NCBI GenBank assembly: GCA_018058095.1
Contig: JAGPCO010000059.1
Location: 1-43,691, forward strand
Direction: 5' to 3'
Source: Kofleriaceae bacterium
GTDB taxonomy: Bacteria > Myxococcota_A > Polyangia > Haliangiales > Haliangiaceae
DNA length: 43,691 bases
Shown here: piece after piece, positions 7,519 through 21,397 of the stretch
Layout: each line of letters opens with the position of its first letter
How positions within the stretch are numbered: the first letter of the stretch is position 1
Translations under genes and position numbers: made by a program
Notes under the pieces: generated by a model
Databases searched by the model: none
What the model was told of the DNA's origin: nothing
Seen by the model: only the letters and a program-made list of their open reading frames with translations

Positions 7519-7537
7519 ATGCCAAGTATGTTGGCAT
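7519..7537. promoter_or_regulatory. Palindromic candidate operator in divergent promoter region
   Basis: ATGCCAA-GTATG-TTGGCAT is a perfect 7-bp inverted repeat with a 5-nt centre. It overlaps the predicted -10 (CATACT, 7535-7540) of the kinase/activator gene and lies 110-130 nt from the start of the divergent coiled-coil gene. It is AT-rich relative to its surroundings. It could be a binding site for a dimeric regulator, possibly the Fis-type domain encoded next door. Confidence 0.5.
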
Positions 7538-7540
7538 ACT
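7535..7540 (+). promoter_or_regulatory. -10 box (CATACT) of kinase/sigma54-activator gene
   Basis: CATACT ends 8 nt before the ATG at 7549. TTGCAC at 7510-7515 could be a -35 but the spacer would be 19 nt. Confidence 0.35.
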
Positions 7541-7548
7541 CGAACCCG

Positions 7549-12492
<4,944 letters not shown>

Positions 12493-13456: not shown

Positions 13457-13923
13457 ACGTCCTTGTAGTAGACCAGCAACGCGTCGCCCGGGCCGTAGAA
13501 GTCGCGCATGCGGGCGGCCAGCGGGTAGCCGAGCTTCTCGTACAGCCGACGGGCCGCGCCGTACCCCTCGGTCTCGCTGGTCTCGACCCGGATGTGGCCG
13601 CCACCCGCGCCCCGGACCGCGTCCTCCATCGCCGCCACCAGCGCGCCGGCCAGGCCGCGACCGCGCGCATCGACGCCGACCACGACCCAGTACAGGTCCC
13701 ACGTCGCCGCCGTCATCGGCGTGCGGCCGTAGCACAGGTACCCGAGCACGGCGGCGTCGTCGCCGTCGGCCGCGGCCACCAGCAGCAGGTAGTCGGTGCT
13801 GCCGGCCAGGGCGGCGTCGACCAGCTCGAGCGCGACCGCGACCTCGTCCGGCTTGAAGGTCTGGTCCGAGCCGATGACCGCGGCCAGCCCCGGGCGGTCA
13901 CCGGCGCGGCCGGCCCGGATCAT
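13453..13923 (-). CDS. GNAT-family N-acetyltransferase
   Basis: A 156-residue single-domain acetyltransferase that would transfer an acyl group from acyl-CoA to an amine. The acetyl-CoA loop is VVGVDARGRGLAGALVAAMED (Q/RxxGxA/G signature, RGRGLAGAL), and the C-terminal GYGAARRLYEKLGY is the usual helix and strand of GNAT proteins. Substrate unknown. Its ATG overlaps the TGA of the ATP-grasp gene (ATGA) and its own TGA overlaps the following lipoprotein start. The tight coupling to the Ddl-like ATP-grasp enzyme suggests both act on the same small amino acid or peptide product. Confidence 0.88.
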   Translation of the reverse strand: MIRAGRAGDRPGLAAVIGSDQTFKPDEVAVALELVDAALAGSTDYLLLVAAADGDDAAVLGYLCYGRTPMTAATWDLYWVVVGVDARGRGLAGALVAAMEDAVRGAGGGHIRVETSETEGYGAARRLYEKLGYPLAARMRDFYGPGDALLVYYKDV

Positions 13924-14951
13924 CGCCGGCCCCGACCGCGCCGCCACGCGCTGTCGGCGATGGCGCGGATGAAGCGCGGGTAGTCGAGCCCGGCCACCGC
14001 CGCCGCCCGCGCCGCGCCGGCGTCGGGCGAGATGTCGCAGTTGGGGTTGACGTCGATCACCAGGGGCTGGCCGCTGGCGTCGATGCGGACGTCGACCCGG
14101 CCGTAGTCGCGCAGGCCGAGCGCGGTCCAGGCCTGACGGGCGACCTGCTCGATGCGGGCCCGCAGCGCCGGGGTGGCGTCGCGCATCGGCACCGGCTTGG
14201 TGCCGACGTAGTCGACGTGGTGCTCGTCCCACTTGGCGGCGTAGCTGACGATGCGCGGGCGATCGGCGGGCATCGACGAGAAGTCGATCTCGTGCAGCGG
14301 CAAGATCTGCAGGTCGGCGCCGTTGCCGAGGATGCCGACGTTGACCTCTCGGCCCTCGACGTAGCGCTCGGCCAGCACCGGCTGCTTCCACTCGGCCATC
14401 ATGATCCGGGCCCGGCGCACCAGCGCCGCGTGATCGCGCACCAGGTTGTCGGCCTCGATGCCGACCGAGGCGTCCTCGTGCACCAGCTTGAGGAACCACG
14501 GGTAGTCGAGACGGGCCAGGGTCGGATCGTCGAGGTCGGCCTCGCCGGTGAGCAGGCGGGCCGGCGGGGTCGGCACGCCGCGCCCGCGCAGGATGTCCTT
14601 GGCCCGGTCCTTGTGCAGGCACGACCCGAGGGCGAGCGCGTCGCTGCCGGTGTACGGCAGGCCGAGCAGCTCGAACACCCCCGGCACCAGCGTCTCGTTG
14701 CGCGAGTCACCCGACAGCGACTCGCACAGGTTGAAGACCAGGTCGGGGCCGCGCCCGGCCATGGCCTGCGCGGTGGCGAACAGGTCCGTGCCGTGGATGC
14801 CGACCAGCTCGGTCGCGACGCCGGTCTGCGCCAGCGCGTCGGCGATGGCCATGGCCGAGGCAAGGACCGCGCTGACGTCGACCCCGGTGCCGGCGGTGAG
14901 CTCGGCGTCGTAGTCGGTGTTGTGGACGACGATCACGCGCGACAGCGACAT
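13920..14951 (-). CDS. D-Ala-D-Ala ligase-like ATP-grasp enzyme
   Basis: A 343-residue ATP-grasp ligase, related to but distinct from Ddl. Conserved elements: CESLSGDSRNE and PYTGSDALALGSCLHKD at the N-terminal domain, the loop HEDASVGIE where Ddl has a Ser-Ser-Val-Gly motif, ERYVEGREVNVGILG, and the metal-binding DVRIDASGQPLVIDVNPNCDIS. The family joins a carboxylate to an amine via an acyl phosphate. VNPNCDIS at the end replaces the EVNTVPGLT of the true Ddl at 17.5 kb, so the substrate probably differs. The ATG at 14951 is preferred over 14960 because AGG lies 9 nt upstream of it. It follows lipB by 10 nt and overlaps the GNAT gene. Confidence 0.85.
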   Translation of the reverse strand: MSLSRVIVVHNTDYDAELTAGTGVDVSAVLASAMAIADALAQTGVATELVGIHGTDLFATAQAMAGRGPDLVFNLCESLSGDSRNETLVPGVFELLGLPYTGSDALALGSCLHKDRAKDILRGRGVPTPPARLLTGEADLDDPTLARLDYPWFLKLVHEDASVGIEADNLVRDHAALVRRARIMMAEWKQPVLAERYVEGREVNVGILGNGADLQILPLHEIDFSSMPADRPRIVSYAAKWDEHHVDYVGTKPVPMRDATPALRARIEQVARQAWTALGLRDYGRVDVRIDASGQPLVIDVNPNCDISPDAGAARAAAVAGLDYPRFIRAIADSAWRRGRGRR

Positions 14952-14961
14952 CGCCGGCATC

Positions 14962-15621
14962 CTACACGAGGCGGGCGACCAGACCAGGCCCGAGCCGCGC
15001 CGCCAGCTCGGGTAACGGCGGCGGCGGCGGTGCGCCGCGCTCGGCCAGCGCGGCCGCGATCGAGGTGCCGGGCCGGCCCAGCCCGCACGGGTTGATCAGG
15101 CGCCACATCTCCTCCGGCGTCGCCACGTCGAGCGCGAAGCCGTGCACCACCACGCCGCGCCGCAGGTGCAGGCCACACGCGGCCAGCTTGCGATCGCCGC
15201 ACCACACCCCGGCCGGATCGCGACGGAACTCGACGCCGGGCAGGCCGAGCTCCGCACACAGCTCGGCGATGGCCGCGCCGACCGCCGCCAGCAGCGGCAC
15301 CACGCCGGCGCGGGCCCGGACCACCGGGTAGATCATCAGCTGACCCGGGCCGTGGTAGGTGACGTCGCCGCCACGCTCGGTCTGCGCCAGCGCGACCCCG
15401 CGCGCCGCCAGCGCCGCGGCGTCGACCAGCACGTGGTCCGGGCGGGCCGACCGCCCGAGCGTGATGATCGGCTCGTGCTCGCACAGCAGCACGGCCTGGG
15501 CCGCGTCGTCGCCGGCCAGGATGTGGTCGCGTCGGGCCTCCTGCTCGGCCAGCGCCGTGGCGTGCGCGATCCGCCCCAGCCAGCGCCAGGTCAGATCACG
15601 ACCGGGCCCGGCCGCGCTCAC
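14962..15621 (-). CDS. lipB: Octanoyltransferase LipB
   Basis: LipB moves octanoate from acyl carrier protein to lipoyl domains, the first step of lipoate synthesis. The 219-residue product has RGGDVTYHGPGQLMIYP, the catalytic Lys in DRKLAACG and the catalytic Cys in NPCGL, all in the usual order. Length is normal for the family. The GTG start overlaps the TGA of the preceding HARE-HTH gene (GTGA). No lipA is present nearby, unlike the lipB-lipA pairs of many bacteria. Confidence 0.95.
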   Translation of the reverse strand: MSAAGPGRDLTWRWLGRIAHATALAEQEARRDHILAGDDAAQAVLLCEHEPIITLGRSARPDHVLVDAAALAARGVALAQTERGGDVTYHGPGQLMIYPVVRARAGVVPLLAAVGAAIAELCAELGLPGVEFRRDPAGVWCGDRKLAACGLHLRRGVVVHGFALDVATPEEMWRLINPCGLGRPGTSIAAALAERGAPPPPPLPELAARLGPGLVARLV

Positions 15622-17249
15622 GCCCCGGCCAGCAGCTCGTCGAGCAGCTGCTCGTCGAGGTACCGCACCGGCGCCGCCGCGGTGACCACGCCGACGCCGG
15701 CCGCCATCATCGCCGCGACCAGGCCATCCCCGACCAGCGCGCTGATCGAGCGGCCGGGCCGCTCCAGCTCGCGCCGGGCCTCATCCGACAGCTCGCGCCC
15801 GGCCAGGAGCAGGCCCCACGCCAGGTCCTTGGCCTCGACGCCGACCCGCAGCTCACCCACGCCACGCCGCTCGACCGGGCTGTCGCCGCTGCGGGCCGAC
15901 ACCAGGATCGCCTTGTCGCCCCCGGCCGGCAGCGCGGTCGCGTAGCTGATGCCGTCGAGGCGCTTGACCCAGGTGATGTCGGCGAAGCCGGCCGCGACCA
16001 GGTAGGCGTGGGCCAGGCGCTCGAACCCGGCCTGGTTGGCGCGCGCCAGGCGGGCGCCGAGCGTCCGCGCCGTCGCCGCCGCCAGCCCGGCCAGCGCGTC
16101 GGCCAGGGTCGACTCGGCCGCCGCCGTCGGCGAGCTCATCACCGGCCCCGGCGCGAACAGGTCGCGGCCGCGGTAGACGATGCGCGGACGCAGGCCGCGG
16201 GCGCGGAAGATGCTCTCGTCGCCCAGCAGCGAGGCCTTGAGGTGCGGCCAGACCTGCTCGGGGTCGGCGTCGATGAGGCCGCGCTTGCGCATCATGCCGG
16301 CCAGCTGCTTGACCGGGACCGGCTGGGCGTTGCGGAGCTGCGCGAACAACGCGGCGGCGGCGTCGCCCAGCGGCGTGCCGATGCCGGTGCCGGTCGCCAC
16401 CACCACCCGCGGCTGCTCGGGCCGCGCCTCGACGCGGGCGCCGTCGCGGTGGTCGCGGCCGCCGCCGTGCTGCGGCTCGCGTCCGCCGCGCTGCGCCTCA
16501 CGGCCACCGCCGTCGGCGCGCGCCTCCGGCCGGCCACCGCCGTGCTGCGGCTCGCGTCCGCCGCCGCCGCCGCCGCCACCGGCCGGCGCCCCGGCCGGGC
16601 GCTCGCGGTCACGCCGATCGCGCCGCTCGTTGCGCTCGCGGTCGCGCCGCTCGCGCCGCTCGTTGCGCCGGTCCTCCCACTGCTTGTGGCGCTCCTGCCG
16701 GGCGTTGATCTCCGGCAGCATCTTGCGGTCCTCGTCCTGGGTCCGCTCGTCACGAAACTCGCGCAGGGCCGGCGCCGGCGCGGTCAACTCGTCGCCGTAC
16801 ACCTCGGCCAGCGCCCGCTCCTCCTCGGTCATGGCCGGCGCCGCCTCGGCGGGGGCGGCCGAGGCGGGGCCGGACTCGACCGGCGCGGCCTCGGCGGCGG
16901 CGCCTCGGGTCGGCCGGGCCTTGGCCGGAGCCGCCGCCTTGCCGGGCTTGGCCTTGGCGGCGGCCGGAGCCGCCTTGGCCTTGGCCGGAGCCGCCTTGGC
17001 CTTGGCCGGGGCTGGCTTGGCCTTGCCGTTCTTGCCGGCGGCGGCGGCGGCACGATACGCCTCGCCGACCTTCTCCACGCCGGCGCCGCTGGCGGCCAGC
17101 TTGTCGAGCCCGCGCGCCAGCGCCTTCTCCTGGGCCGGCGTGACCTTGCCGACCTGCTTGCTCGAGGTCGCGGCGGCGGTCAACTCGGCCAGGGTGAGCG
17201 CGCTCTTGCGGGCGGCGAGGATGGACAGGGCGGCGTCGAGCAGGGTCAT
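15618..17249 (-). CDS. HARE-HTH protein with H1-like Lys/Ala linker and degenerate Mrr-like endonuclease domain
   Basis: A 543-residue protein. Residues 1-70 (LLDAALSILAARKSALTLAELTAAA) look like a HARE-HTH winged helix, a domain linked to DNA or modified-base reading. Residues 72-115 are a histone H1-like AKAAPAK repeat tract. Residues 165-220 are very Arg/Glu/Asp-rich, followed by Gly/Arg repeats with REPQHGGGR twice. A second winged-helix-like stretch is at 290-365. The C-terminus (400-540) resembles Mrr-type restriction endonucleases (FERLAHAYLVAAGF, DGIS at 432-435) but the QxK catalytic Lys position reads SAR, so it is probably inactive. The ATG fits a TTGACG-N18-TATCCA promoter 8 nt upstream. 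It heads the lipB operon. Domain assignment is by pattern, not search. Confidence 0.7.
   Translation of the reverse strand: MTLLDAALSILAARKSALTLAELTAAATSSKQVGKVTPAQEKALARGLDKLAASGAGVEKVGEAYRAAAAAGKNGKAKPAPAKAKAAPAKAKAAPAAAKAKPGKAAAPAKARPTRGAAAEAAPVESGPASAAPAEAAPAMTEEERALAEVYGDELTAPAPALREFRDERTQDEDRKMLPEINARQERHKQWEDRRNERRERRDRERNERRDRRDRERPAGAPAGGGGGGGGREPQHGGGRPEARADGGGREAQRGGREPQHGGGRDHRDGARVEARPEQPRVVVATGTGIGTPLGDAAAALFAQLRNAQPVPVKQLAGMMRKRGLIDADPEQVWPHLKASLLGDESIFRARGLRPRIVYRGRDLFAPGPVMSSPTAAAESTLADALAGLAAATARTLGARLARANQAGFERLAHAYLVAAGFADITWVKRLDGISYATALPAGGDKAILVSARSGDSPVERRGVGELRVGVEAKDLAWGLLLAGRELSDEARRELERPGRSISALVGDGLVAAMMAAGVGVVTAAAPVRYLDEQLLDELLAGA
16462..16564. repeat. 28-nt direct repeat within HARE-HTH gene
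   Basis: Positions 16462-16489 and 16537-16564 carry the same 28 bases, offset by 75 nt (25 codons), so the reading frame is kept; they encode the repeated REPQHGGGR segments. Confidence 0.8.
16963..17010. repeat. 21-nt tandem repeat within HARE-HTH gene (KAKAAPA units)
   Basis: Two perfect 21-nt units (16963-16983, 16984-17004) and the start of a third encode the seven-residue Lys/Ala/Pro repeat of the H1-like linker. Confidence 0.8.
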
Positions 17250-17547: not shown

Positions 17548-18555
17548 ATGAAGCAACGCAAGATCGGTGTCCTGATGGGTGGCCTCAGCAGCGAGCGCGA
17601 GGTGTCGCTGCGCAGCGGCGAGGCCGTGCTGGCGGCCCTGCTCGACCGCGGCTACCACGCGGTCGCCGTCTACGTCGATCGCGACCTCGACATGGTGCTC
17701 CGGCAGGAGCGGATCGAGCTGGCGTTCATCGCCCTGCACGGGCGGCTGGGCGAGGACGGCTGCGTGCAGGGCCTGCTCGAGACCCTGGGCATCCCATACA
17801 CCGGATCTGACGTCCTGGCGTCGGCGCTGGCGATGAACAAGGCCAAGGCCAAGGAGCTGTTCCGGCTGCACAACGTGCCGACCCCGGCCTACTACGTGCT
17901 GGCCGCCGACGAGCCCGAACCGCTGGTGGTGCACGGCGACTTCGGCTTCCCGTGTGTGGTCAAGCCGGTCCGCGAGGGCAGCTCGGTCGGCGTCGAGATC
18001 TGCCGCGACGAGGCCGAGTTCGTCGGCGCGGTCGAACGAGCTGGCTGCTTCGATCACGAGCTGCTGGTCGAGCGCTTCTGCGCCGGCCAGGAGGTCTCGG
18101 TCGCGATCCTCGGCGACCGCGCCATCGGCGCGGTCGAGATCGCGCCCATCGGCGCCAAGGCCGGCTTCTACGACTACGGCGCCAAGTACACCCGTGGCGC
18201 CACCGAGTACTTCGTGCCGCCGCGCATGTCGCCCGAGCGCTACCGCGGCGTGCTGGCCCAGGCCCTGCGCGCGCACCGCGCCCTCGGCTGCGCCGGCGCG
18301 ACGCGGGTCGACCTCATCGTCAGCGACACCGGCAACGAGGTCATCCTCGAGGTCAACACCGTGCCCGGCCTGACCCAGACCAGCCTGCTGCCGAAGATCG
18401 CCCACGCCGCCGGCATCGCGTTCGACGAGCTGTGCGAGGTGATGCTGCTCGGCGCCGGCCTGGCCAGCCAGCGGCGCCGCGGCGAACGGCGCGACCAGCG
18501 GCGTTCGTTCCTCGGCGAGGAGCGCCGGGCCGCGCCTGCGCCGGACCACCACTGA
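17548..18555 (+). CDS. ddl: D-alanine--D-alanine ligase
   Basis: Ddl makes the D-Ala-D-Ala dipeptide for peptidoglycan precursors. The 335-residue product has the N-terminal GGLSSEREVSLRSGEAV, ALHGRLGEDGCVQGLLE, the ATP-grasp loop KPVREGSSVGVEI, and DLIVSDTGNEVILEVNTVPGLTQTSLLPK at the metal site. The last 25 residues are an unusual basic tail (RRRGERRDQRR). The ATG at 17548 is the first Met before the conserved GVLMGGLSSE; no good ribosome site or -10 box is evident near it. It is followed after 40 nt by a GT51 fusion gene, consistent with a peptidoglycan operon. Confidence 0.95.
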   Translation: MKQRKIGVLMGGLSSEREVSLRSGEAVLAALLDRGYHAVAVYVDRDLDMVLRQERIELAFIALHGRLGEDGCVQGLLETLGIPYTGSDVLASALAMNKAKAKELFRLHNVPTPAYYVLAADEPEPLVVHGDFGFPCVVKPVREGSSVGVEICRDEAEFVGAVERAGCFDHELLVERFCAGQEVSVAILGDRAIGAVEIAPIGAKAGFYDYGAKYTRGATEYFVPPRMSPERYRGVLAQALRAHRALGCAGATRVDLIVSDTGNEVILEVNTVPGLTQTSLLPKIAHAAGIAFDELCEVMLLGAGLASQRRRGERRDQRRSFLGEERRAAPAPDHH

Positions 18556-18595: not shown

Positions 18596-20632
18596 ATGGT
18601 CCGAACCCCTACCCTCCTGCTGCTGTCAGGCGCGGTCGCCGTCGCCGCCCCGGTGCTGGCCGCCCGCCTGGTGCAGCGCCGCGTCGATGAGCGCCTGGTC
18701 CCGGCCCTGACCGAGCTGACCGGCCAGCCGGTGCGGGTCGGCGGCGTCGACGTCGGCCTGACCGGGACGGTCCGCCTCGACGAGGTGGCCATCGGCACCC
18801 AGCTCACCGCCGCCTACGTCGAGGCCCGGGTCGCGCTGTCCTCGCTGCTGGCCGGGCGGTGGGGCGCCGACGAGATCGAGGTGGCGGCGCCGCGCCTGCG
18901 CGCCCGCCTGGGCCGGGACGGCCAGCTCGATCTCGCCACGTTGATCGAGCGGGTCGCCAGCCGCCGGGCCGGCCCGTCCGGGCCGCCGGCGCCGTCGAGC
19001 CGGCGCCTGCGCCGCATCGTCGTCAGCGGCGGCGACCTGGTGGTCAGCCTGCCCGACGGTGGTCAGCTGCGGGCGCGCGGCGTCGAGGTGCATCCGAGCC
19101 CGGGCGGAGCCCGGGTCGTGACCCGCGCCGTCGAGGTGCGCGCCCCGACCCGGCTCGGCCTGGCTCGGGCCCGCTGGCCGCGGGTCGCGGCCGACCTCCG
19201 CCTGCCGCACATCGGCATCGACCGCCTGCTCGCCGCCGATGGCGAGCTGGTGCTGGGCAGCGCCGACGCCAGCCTGCGCGCGTCGCGCCTGACCGTGATG
19301 GTCGACCGCGCCGGCCAGGTGGTGGGCCGGGCCGACGTCGACGACGGCGGGGTGCCGCGCCCGGTCACGGTGGTGGCGGTGCCACGCCAGCGCTCGCTCC
19401 ACGTCCGCGCCGACGACGTCCCGCTGGCGCTGGCGGCCCCGCTGCTGGCGGACCTGGTCGACCTGCGCGCCGCCCGCGCCACCGGCGCGCTGGCGCTGGT
19501 GGCGACCCGCACCGGCAGCGTGGTCGAGGGCGACCTGGCGATCAGCGCGCTGGCGCTGACCGCCCCCGGCGTCGCCGGCACCGCCATGCCCACCACCCGC
19601 TGGACCGGGCGCGTCGAGCTCGACCGCGACCGCCTGCGCCTGGCCGGGACCGCGGCCACCGGCGCCCTGGCGGTCGAGCTCGACGGCCGGATCGCCCGGC
19701 AGCCGCGACGCGGCGTCAGCGACCTGACGGTGACGGTGCGTCCGGTCGCCTGCCTGGACGCGCTCGACAGCGTGCCGGCCGCCGCGCGCGACCACCTCGA
19801 CGGCCTGACCGTGCAGGGCGAGCTGCGGGCGCGGGCCCAGGTCCGGATCGATCCGGCCGCGCCAGCGGGCGAGGCGGTCCGGCTCGACCTCGACGGCCCG
19901 AGCGGATGCCTGGTCCTGGCCGACGCCCCCGCGGCCGCGCCGGCCGCCCTGACCCGGGCCCACCAGCACGTCTTCCCCGACGGGCACCACCTCGACCTGG
20001 CCGACGGCAGCGGCCTGGCCCTGCTGCGCGGGTTGCCGGCCCACGTCGTCGGCGCCTTCGTCGCCGGTGAGGACGCTCGCTTCCGCACCCACCGCGGGTT
20101 CGACCTCAACCAGATCGCGCGCAGCCTGGAGATCAACCTGCGCGAGGGCCGGCTCCTGCGCGGCGGCTCGACCATCAGCCAGCAGCTGGTCAAGAACGAG
20201 TGGCTCGGCCGCCAGCGCACCTTCGCCCGCAAGCTGCAGGAGGTGATCCTGACCTGGCGGCTGGAGCAGGCGCTCGGCAAGGACGACATCCTCGGCCACT
20301 ACCTCGAGATCATCGAGCTCGGCCCCGGCGTGTGGGGGCTCGCCGCCGCCGCCGCCTACTGGTTCGGCAAGGCGGCGCGTGACCTCACCGCCGGTGAGGC
20401 GGCGTTCCTGGCCGCGCTGACGCCGGAGCCGGCGACGATGAGCCGCCGCCTGGCCATGGCCGGCGGGCTCGACCCGCGCAGCGCCGAGCGCCGGGCCATC
20501 ATCCTGCGCGGGATGAAGCGGGCCGGCGTGCTGAGCGAGGCCCAGCTGACCCGGGCCGTGCGCGAGCCGGTGTCGCTCCGGGCCGAGGCCCTGGCCCTGG
20601 CGGTGTCGGAGCCGGCGTCGCCCTCGCCCTGA
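18596..20632 (+). CDS. AsmA-like domain fused to GT51 peptidoglycan glycosyltransferase
   Basis: A 678-residue protein. It begins with a membrane anchor (residues 5-22), followed by about 430 residues of AsmA/DUF748-like beta-rich sequence (VRVGGVDVGLTGTVRLDEVAIG, VEARVALSSLLAGRWGADEIEV, VVSGGDLVVSLPDG). Residues 485-645 form a GT51 transglycosylase domain: EDARFRTHRG with catalytic Glu492, GGSTISQQLVKN from 523, RKLQEVILTWRLE, and AAYWFGKAARDLTAGEAAFLA. GT51 enzymes polymerise lipid II into glycan strands. There is no transpeptidase domain, so it resembles MtgA in enzymatic content but carries a large added periplasmic domain. It follows ddl. The ATG lies 40 nt after the ddl stop. Confidence 0.85.
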   Translation: MVRTPTLLLLSGAVAVAAPVLAARLVQRRVDERLVPALTELTGQPVRVGGVDVGLTGTVRLDEVAIGTQLTAAYVEARVALSSLLAGRWGADEIEVAAPRLRARLGRDGQLDLATLIERVASRRAGPSGPPAPSSRRLRRIVVSGGDLVVSLPDGGQLRARGVEVHPSPGGARVVTRAVEVRAPTRLGLARARWPRVAADLRLPHIGIDRLLAADGELVLGSADASLRASRLTVMVDRAGQVVGRADVDDGGVPRPVTVVAVPRQRSLHVRADDVPLALAAPLLADLVDLRAARATGALALVATRTGSVVEGDLAISALALTAPGVAGTAMPTTRWTGRVELDRDRLRLAGTAATGALAVELDGRIARQPRRGVSDLTVTVRPVACLDALDSVPAAARDHLDGLTVQGELRARAQVRIDPAAPAGEAVRLDLDGPSGCLVLADAPAAAPAALTRAHQHVFPDGHHLDLADGSGLALLRGLPAHVVGAFVAGEDARFRTHRGFDLNQIARSLEINLREGRLLRGGSTISQQLVKNEWLGRQRTFARKLQEVILTWRLEQALGKDDILGHYLEIIELGPGVWGLAAAAAYWFGKAARDLTAGEAAFLAALTPEPATMSRRLAMAGGLDPRSAERRAIILRGMKRAGVLSEAQLTRAVREPVSLRAEALALAVSEPASPSP

Positions 20633-20647: not shown

Positions 20648-21397
<750 letters not shown>

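Follow-up and report, generated by a model that had tools for sequence, protein, structure and literature searches.

A protein of Kofleriaceae joining an AsmA-like domain to a GT51 glycosyltransferase, and its relatives in the phylum

The window, a stretch of 43,691 bp of DNA from a Kofleriaceae bacterium, hosts a gene encoding a protein in which an AsmA-like part of about 430 residues is found between a membrane helix and a GT51 glycosyltransferase domain. The product is most likely an inner-membrane-anchored lipid II polymerase provided with a lipid-groove arm. Both halves of the protein are known. Their combination, the breadth of its distribution and its linkage to ddl genes appear undescribed: no description of the fusion was found in the open-access literature, and Pfam or InterPro may well list the architecture.

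Architecture of the fusion protein

The features of the gene are listed in Table 1. The GT51 part is sharply defined. The Transgly model (PF00912) matches residues 477-640 with an E value of 2.4e-46 and 157.9 bits, over the Pfam cut-off of 27, and the GT51 motifs are found as EDARFRTHRGFD (including E492), GGSTISQQ, RKLQE (including E549) and YLEIIELGPGVWG. E492 and E549 are invariant among orthologues, motifs 1-3 are kept throughout the type A alignment, and the catalytic residues do not vary in 20 type A proteins and 13 members of the second group of fusions described below. At positions 20306-20308 the window protein features Glu571, where nearly all orthologues carry the Asn of motif 4 (YLN). 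One relative (L075) gave no match to the motif-2 pattern. The GT51 part of the AlphaFold2 (AF2) model resembles the Aquifex aeolicus GT51 structure 3nb6, both in Foldseek (E 2.6e-12) and in VIA-align (Z 21.5 over 183 residues, rmsd 2.3). Pfam identifies Transgly and DUF748 only; the transpeptidase domain PF00905 is absent, and the protein ends 38 residues past the Transgly match. GT51 family members carrying these motifs are lipid II polymerases that act on the outer face of the inner membrane. Judged by its motifs, a polymerase activity of the fusion protein is well supported, and what is known of the family suggests that lipid II would be the substrate.

Table 1. Features of the fusion gene, its upstream neighbour and its paralogue (window positions, except for the last line)
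Feature	Position	Strand	Basis
ddl, D-alanine--D-alanine ligase	17548..18555	+	PF07478, E 4e-49
AsmA-like/GT51 fusion gene	18596..20632	+	ORF of 678 aa from ATG through stop codon, single continuous frame; orthologues
Long N-terminal helix, residues 4-42	18605..18721	+	AF2 helix; hydropathy (most hydrophobic 19-residue window at residues 8-26, membrane segment)
AsmA-like beta-sheet domain, residues 43-471	18722..20008	+	DUF748; AF2 models; Foldseek match to LPD-3
Junction segment, residues 372-475	19709..20020	+	Alignment A3; phylum search; GT51 directly behind
Cys386 codon	19751..19753	+	Invariant in both paralogous groups
Cys438 codon	19907..19909	+	Invariant in both paralogous groups
GT51 glycosyltransferase domain, residues 472-668	20009..20599	+	PF00912; Foldseek 3nb6; VIA-align
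Glu492, motif-1 catalytic glutamate (E of ED-x2-F-x2-H-x-G)	20069..20071	+	Invariant
Glu549, motif-3 glutamate (RKxxE)	20240..20242	+	Invariant
Second AsmA-like/GT51 fusion, same genome	G000:C20:23263-25290 (L060:7165-9354)	-	29 % identity to window protein

The N-terminal domain resembles AsmA-like proteins at profile level. In the window protein DUF748 matches residues 12-148 (E 2.3e-10; 39.7 bits, under the curated Pfam cut-off of 50). When the N-domains of 20 orthologues were searched alone, 18 matched DUF748 at E <= 0.01, two matched YhdP and two AsmA. DUF748 has been related to TamB and AsmA through profile comparison (PMC4494059), and PF05359 proteins are counted as AsmA-like (PMC10900882). 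In the second group DUF748 is found in 13 of the 14 rows of the alignment, and members match AsmA, YhdP or YdbH-like models; one of them (L068) passes the YdbH-like cut-off (29 vs 26.3). A distant relative, L119, passes the DUF748 cut-off (51.5 vs 50). In hhalign comparisons with 24 E. coli proteins and 15 shuffles, the second-group N-domain profile ranked AsmA first and YhdP second, both aligned N-terminus to N-terminus. The type A N-domain profile compared with E. coli AsmA, YhdP and TamB gave nothing above controls, and nothing meaningful was obtained with an N-domain profile against PDB sequences (best E 0.28).

The structure of the full protein was predicted by AF2 from the 20-sequence alignment (pLDDT 86.8, pTM 0.73). 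The model consists of a helix at residues 4-42, about 28 strands between residues 50 and 468, and the helical GT51 domain from residue 472. Modelled alone, the N-domain is almost all-beta (pLDDT 85.5). An N-terminal helix followed by a long beta-groove is the layout of the AsmA-like clan, and the groove-type match is to LPD-3, a bridge-like lipid transfer protein and the only PDB structure retrieved by Foldseek under E 0.001 with the N-domain alone (E 2.9e-6, probability 1.00; the TM-score is low, 0.23, and identity is 8 %). LptD, apoB-100 and TamAB follow with weaker scores, mixed with porins. Lipid carriers are similarly intermixed with porins and OspA in the VIA-align rows, so that only LPD-3 stands out; no TamB, YhdP or AsmA structure is at the top of the fold search, and TamAB, with a Z of 7.1, is surrounded by unrelated entries, an outcome that speaks neither for nor against the assignment. 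Hydrophobic and polar residues alternate along the strands more than in shuffled sequences (z 5), a property required of a lipid groove but common to many beta-sheets too.

The earlier note on this DNA had assigned the N-terminal part by pattern to the AsmA-like proteins, and had described it as preceding a GT51 core with intact motifs. Pfam, the orthologue profiles, the AF2 model and the fold match all bear out this architecture. The note would have abandoned it had the N-terminal part not matched an AsmA-like beta-groove, or had the catalytic glutamate been lost in orthologues. Neither occurred: the AF2 model, DUF748 in 18 of the 20 orthologues and the LPD-3 match agree on the groove, and all motifs are present with both active-site glutamates invariant.

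By their place in the tree, the fusion GT51s resemble MtgA more than they do the PBPs. In the GT51 tree the fusion domains are set apart from those of class A PBPs (support 100/99), and the second group makes one branch (100/96). E. coli MtgA, which does not fall with class A PBPs either, has a long branch and is placed next to the fusions or among them. Once it is included, only 28 % of bootstrap trees have a branch that separates all fusions from the other sequences; a tree constrained to keep the fusions together, in line with a single origin, is not rejected (p-AU 0.49). MtgA is likewise a membrane-anchored GT51 lacking a transpeptidase, but the E. coli protein is 242 aa long and has no AsmA-like domain, and the window protein scores 145 bits with the MtgA equivalog model TIGR02070, under the cut-off of 182.65. 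With the class A PBPs (PBP1a/1b/1c) the fusion shares the GT51 fold and motifs, but PF00905 is missing, and the additional part is an AsmA-like domain of about 430 residues at the N-terminus. With members of the AsmA-like clan (DUF748, AsmA, YhdP, YdbH, TamB) it shares the N-terminal inner-membrane helix and the long amphipathic beta-sheet, but it has a glycosyltransferase at the C-terminal end of the groove, and none is described for the clan in the papers cited here. Among the fold matches of the N-domain only LPD-3/BLTP1 is significant, but it is eukaryotic and far longer; the likeness is one of form, and no homology is claimed.

Distribution and paralogous groups

A short-peptide search of contigs had retrieved two loci only, and whole genomes were consequently searched. 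The protein search of 56 related genomes gave long matches, mostly at 34-47 % identity; such orthologues occur in the majority of genomes in the genus and the family, and extend to further families of the order. Invariant in the 20-sequence alignment are the catalytic GT51 residues, C386, C438, G67, R210 and G297. The two cysteines are possibly a disulfide pair.

The fusions fall into two paralogous groups, and the window genome has both. Its second fusion (Table 1) features DUF748 (E 1.5e-11) and GT51. The genome, 7.57 Mb in size, hosts seven GT51 genes, the two fusions and five others.

Relatives were searched throughout the phylum with a profile (A3) of the junction, a stretch of 100 residues between groove and GT51 in which two Cys and one Gly are invariant. 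Of the 283 genomes sampled in the phylum 157 gave a match, as did 58 of the 62 in the class (as counted from the search table). GT51 is located directly behind the junction segment in nearly every gene read, in proteins of up to 1146 aa. Such a spread across the phylum denotes an old, phylum-wide architecture, and not a one-off fusion. In apparently complete proteins the junction segment starts anywhere from about residue 326 to residue 788, which corresponds to an approximately two-fold range in the length preceding GT51. Among the long relatives are L079:515-3574 (1019 aa) and L113:2925-6365 (1146 aa), in which the part ahead of GT51 reaches up to roughly double the length; L113 additionally matches the GETHR pentapeptide repeat model. 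The profile found no match in 249 genomes of another phylum, reached through L039, a group for which there was no positive control, so that this negative carries little weight. In plasmids, tblastn matched GT51 regions only, and nowhere was most of the query covered.

Genomic surroundings

The fusion gene lies directly behind ddl, as the earlier note had reported; both are on the same strand, the gap is 40 bp, and the two genes are likely part of the same transcription unit. The adjacency is conserved. In 19 of the 23 window-type loci checked ddl immediately precedes the fusion gene in the same orientation, which makes co-expression with peptidoglycan precursor synthesis likely, and in some, such as L051 and L040 (9039/9039), it touches or overlaps the fusion gene; in the other four (L056, L057, L074, L078) ddl is not adjacent. 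That the pairing is kept from family to family speaks for a role in peptidoglycan synthesis.

Genes of the second group have different, conserved surroundings, which include an ECF sigma factor gene, a DUF4129-like gene, and a divergent pair encoding a 996-aa unknown protein and a peptidase MA/TPR protein. At four second-group loci, all from other families, another GT51 gene is located within a few kb. The three of these that were scanned encode GT51 and transpeptidase domains, as class A PBPs do.

Other genes of the window deserve mention. A metallophosphoesterase gene (20648-21397, minus strand) is convergent with the fusion gene and up to 84 % identical in relatives, far above its neighbours. 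A second, divergent ATP-grasp gene similar to D-Ala-D-Ala ligases (13920-14951, minus strand) keeps its position across the family; the copies of relatives are about 29 % identical to ddl, and an LplA/LipB-like gene adjoins. The ORF at 15618-17249 (minus strand), found beside ddl across the family, encodes a protein with an Mrr-type restriction endonuclease domain at its C-terminus and a charged middle part of low complexity. The ORF at 7528-12492 (plus strand) encodes a protein of 1654 aa with Ser/Thr kinase, TPR and GAF domains, a sigma-54 activator AAA domain and a Fis-type HTH.

Proposed function and alternatives

In the preferred reading the N-terminal helix would anchor the protein in the inner membrane, and the GT51 domain would string lipid II into glycan strands, leaving cross-linking to other enzymes. 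The AsmA-like groove, placed between anchor and enzyme, would hold lipid tails, either of phospholipid or of the undecaprenyl of substrate or product, and set where or when the polymerase works at the membrane; strand synthesis would thereby be tied to the state of envelope lipids. That the protein is an anchored GT51 lipid II polymerase whose groove binds lipid tails, places or regulates the enzyme and links synthesis to envelope lipids is given about an even chance. For AsmA-like proteins of E. coli and P. aeruginosa a role as phospholipid bridges has been proposed (PMC8593681, PMC8912898, PMC10900882). A lipid in the groove of the fusion protein is an inference, and so is the coupling of glycan polymerisation to lipid or outer-membrane transport that the earlier note had suggested. 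This does not imply that the groove reaches all the way to the outer membrane, because groove length varies about two-fold and the GT51 domain must reach lipid II in the inner membrane; that a domain of about 28 strands spans the periplasm cannot be assumed.

The AsmA-like domain might work without any lipid, as a rigid periplasmic arm spacing the polymerase or docking partner proteins, in the way extra domains of PBP1b and PBP1a dock outer-membrane activators. A variable domain length joined to a fixed junction and GT51 suits a spacer or docking arm, and the invariant cysteines adjoin the enzyme and are not spread along the groove. The fold and profile matches, however, are to lipid-groove proteins and to no known docking domains, and amphipathic strands extend over most of the domain; this explanation is possible, and clearly the less probable of the two. 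It is improbable that GT51 polymerises a lipid-linked glycan moved along the groove off the inner membrane, or makes a glycan other than peptidoglycan. AsmA-type grooves are thought to lead off the inner membrane, and GT51 is found at the C-terminal end of this one, but the ddl linkage and the class A PBP genes close to second-group fusions point to peptidoglycan, and the GT51 motifs are canonical.

An inactive GT51 domain, the protein being a scaffold, is very improbable. The replacement by Glu of the nearly invariant motif-4 Asn571 in the window protein and the motif-2 pattern undetected in L075 would fit with it, but a scaffold would be expected to lose the catalytic glutamates and motifs 1-3, which the type A alignment retains. 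An assembly or gene-model artefact fusing two separate genes has a practically negligible probability. No point in its support was found, and the frame is unbroken in the window and in some 20 orthologues from separate genomes, and also across classes; conservation of the fusion already refutes it.

How diderm bacteria match peptidoglycan growth to the supply of outer-membrane lipids is an open question. In P. aeruginosa, overproduction of AsmA-like proteins lowers the activity of the CtpA protease system, and CtpA controls cell-wall endopeptidases (PMC12569750). This effect is a precedent for a link between lipid flow and wall synthesis, though there the link is indirect and regulatory. Returning to the anchored polymerase with a lipid-binding groove, it is tentatively suggested that the fusions are a new polymerase family in which lipid transport by an AsmA-like groove is built in, coordinating glycan synthesis and lipid flow throughout the phylum. 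A conserved covalent fusion of groove and polymerase would make the link testable, by biochemistry on a single protein and by mutants of culturable myxobacteria. The growth of the cell wall and the handling of membrane lipids may be physically linked in myxobacteria and related bacteria.
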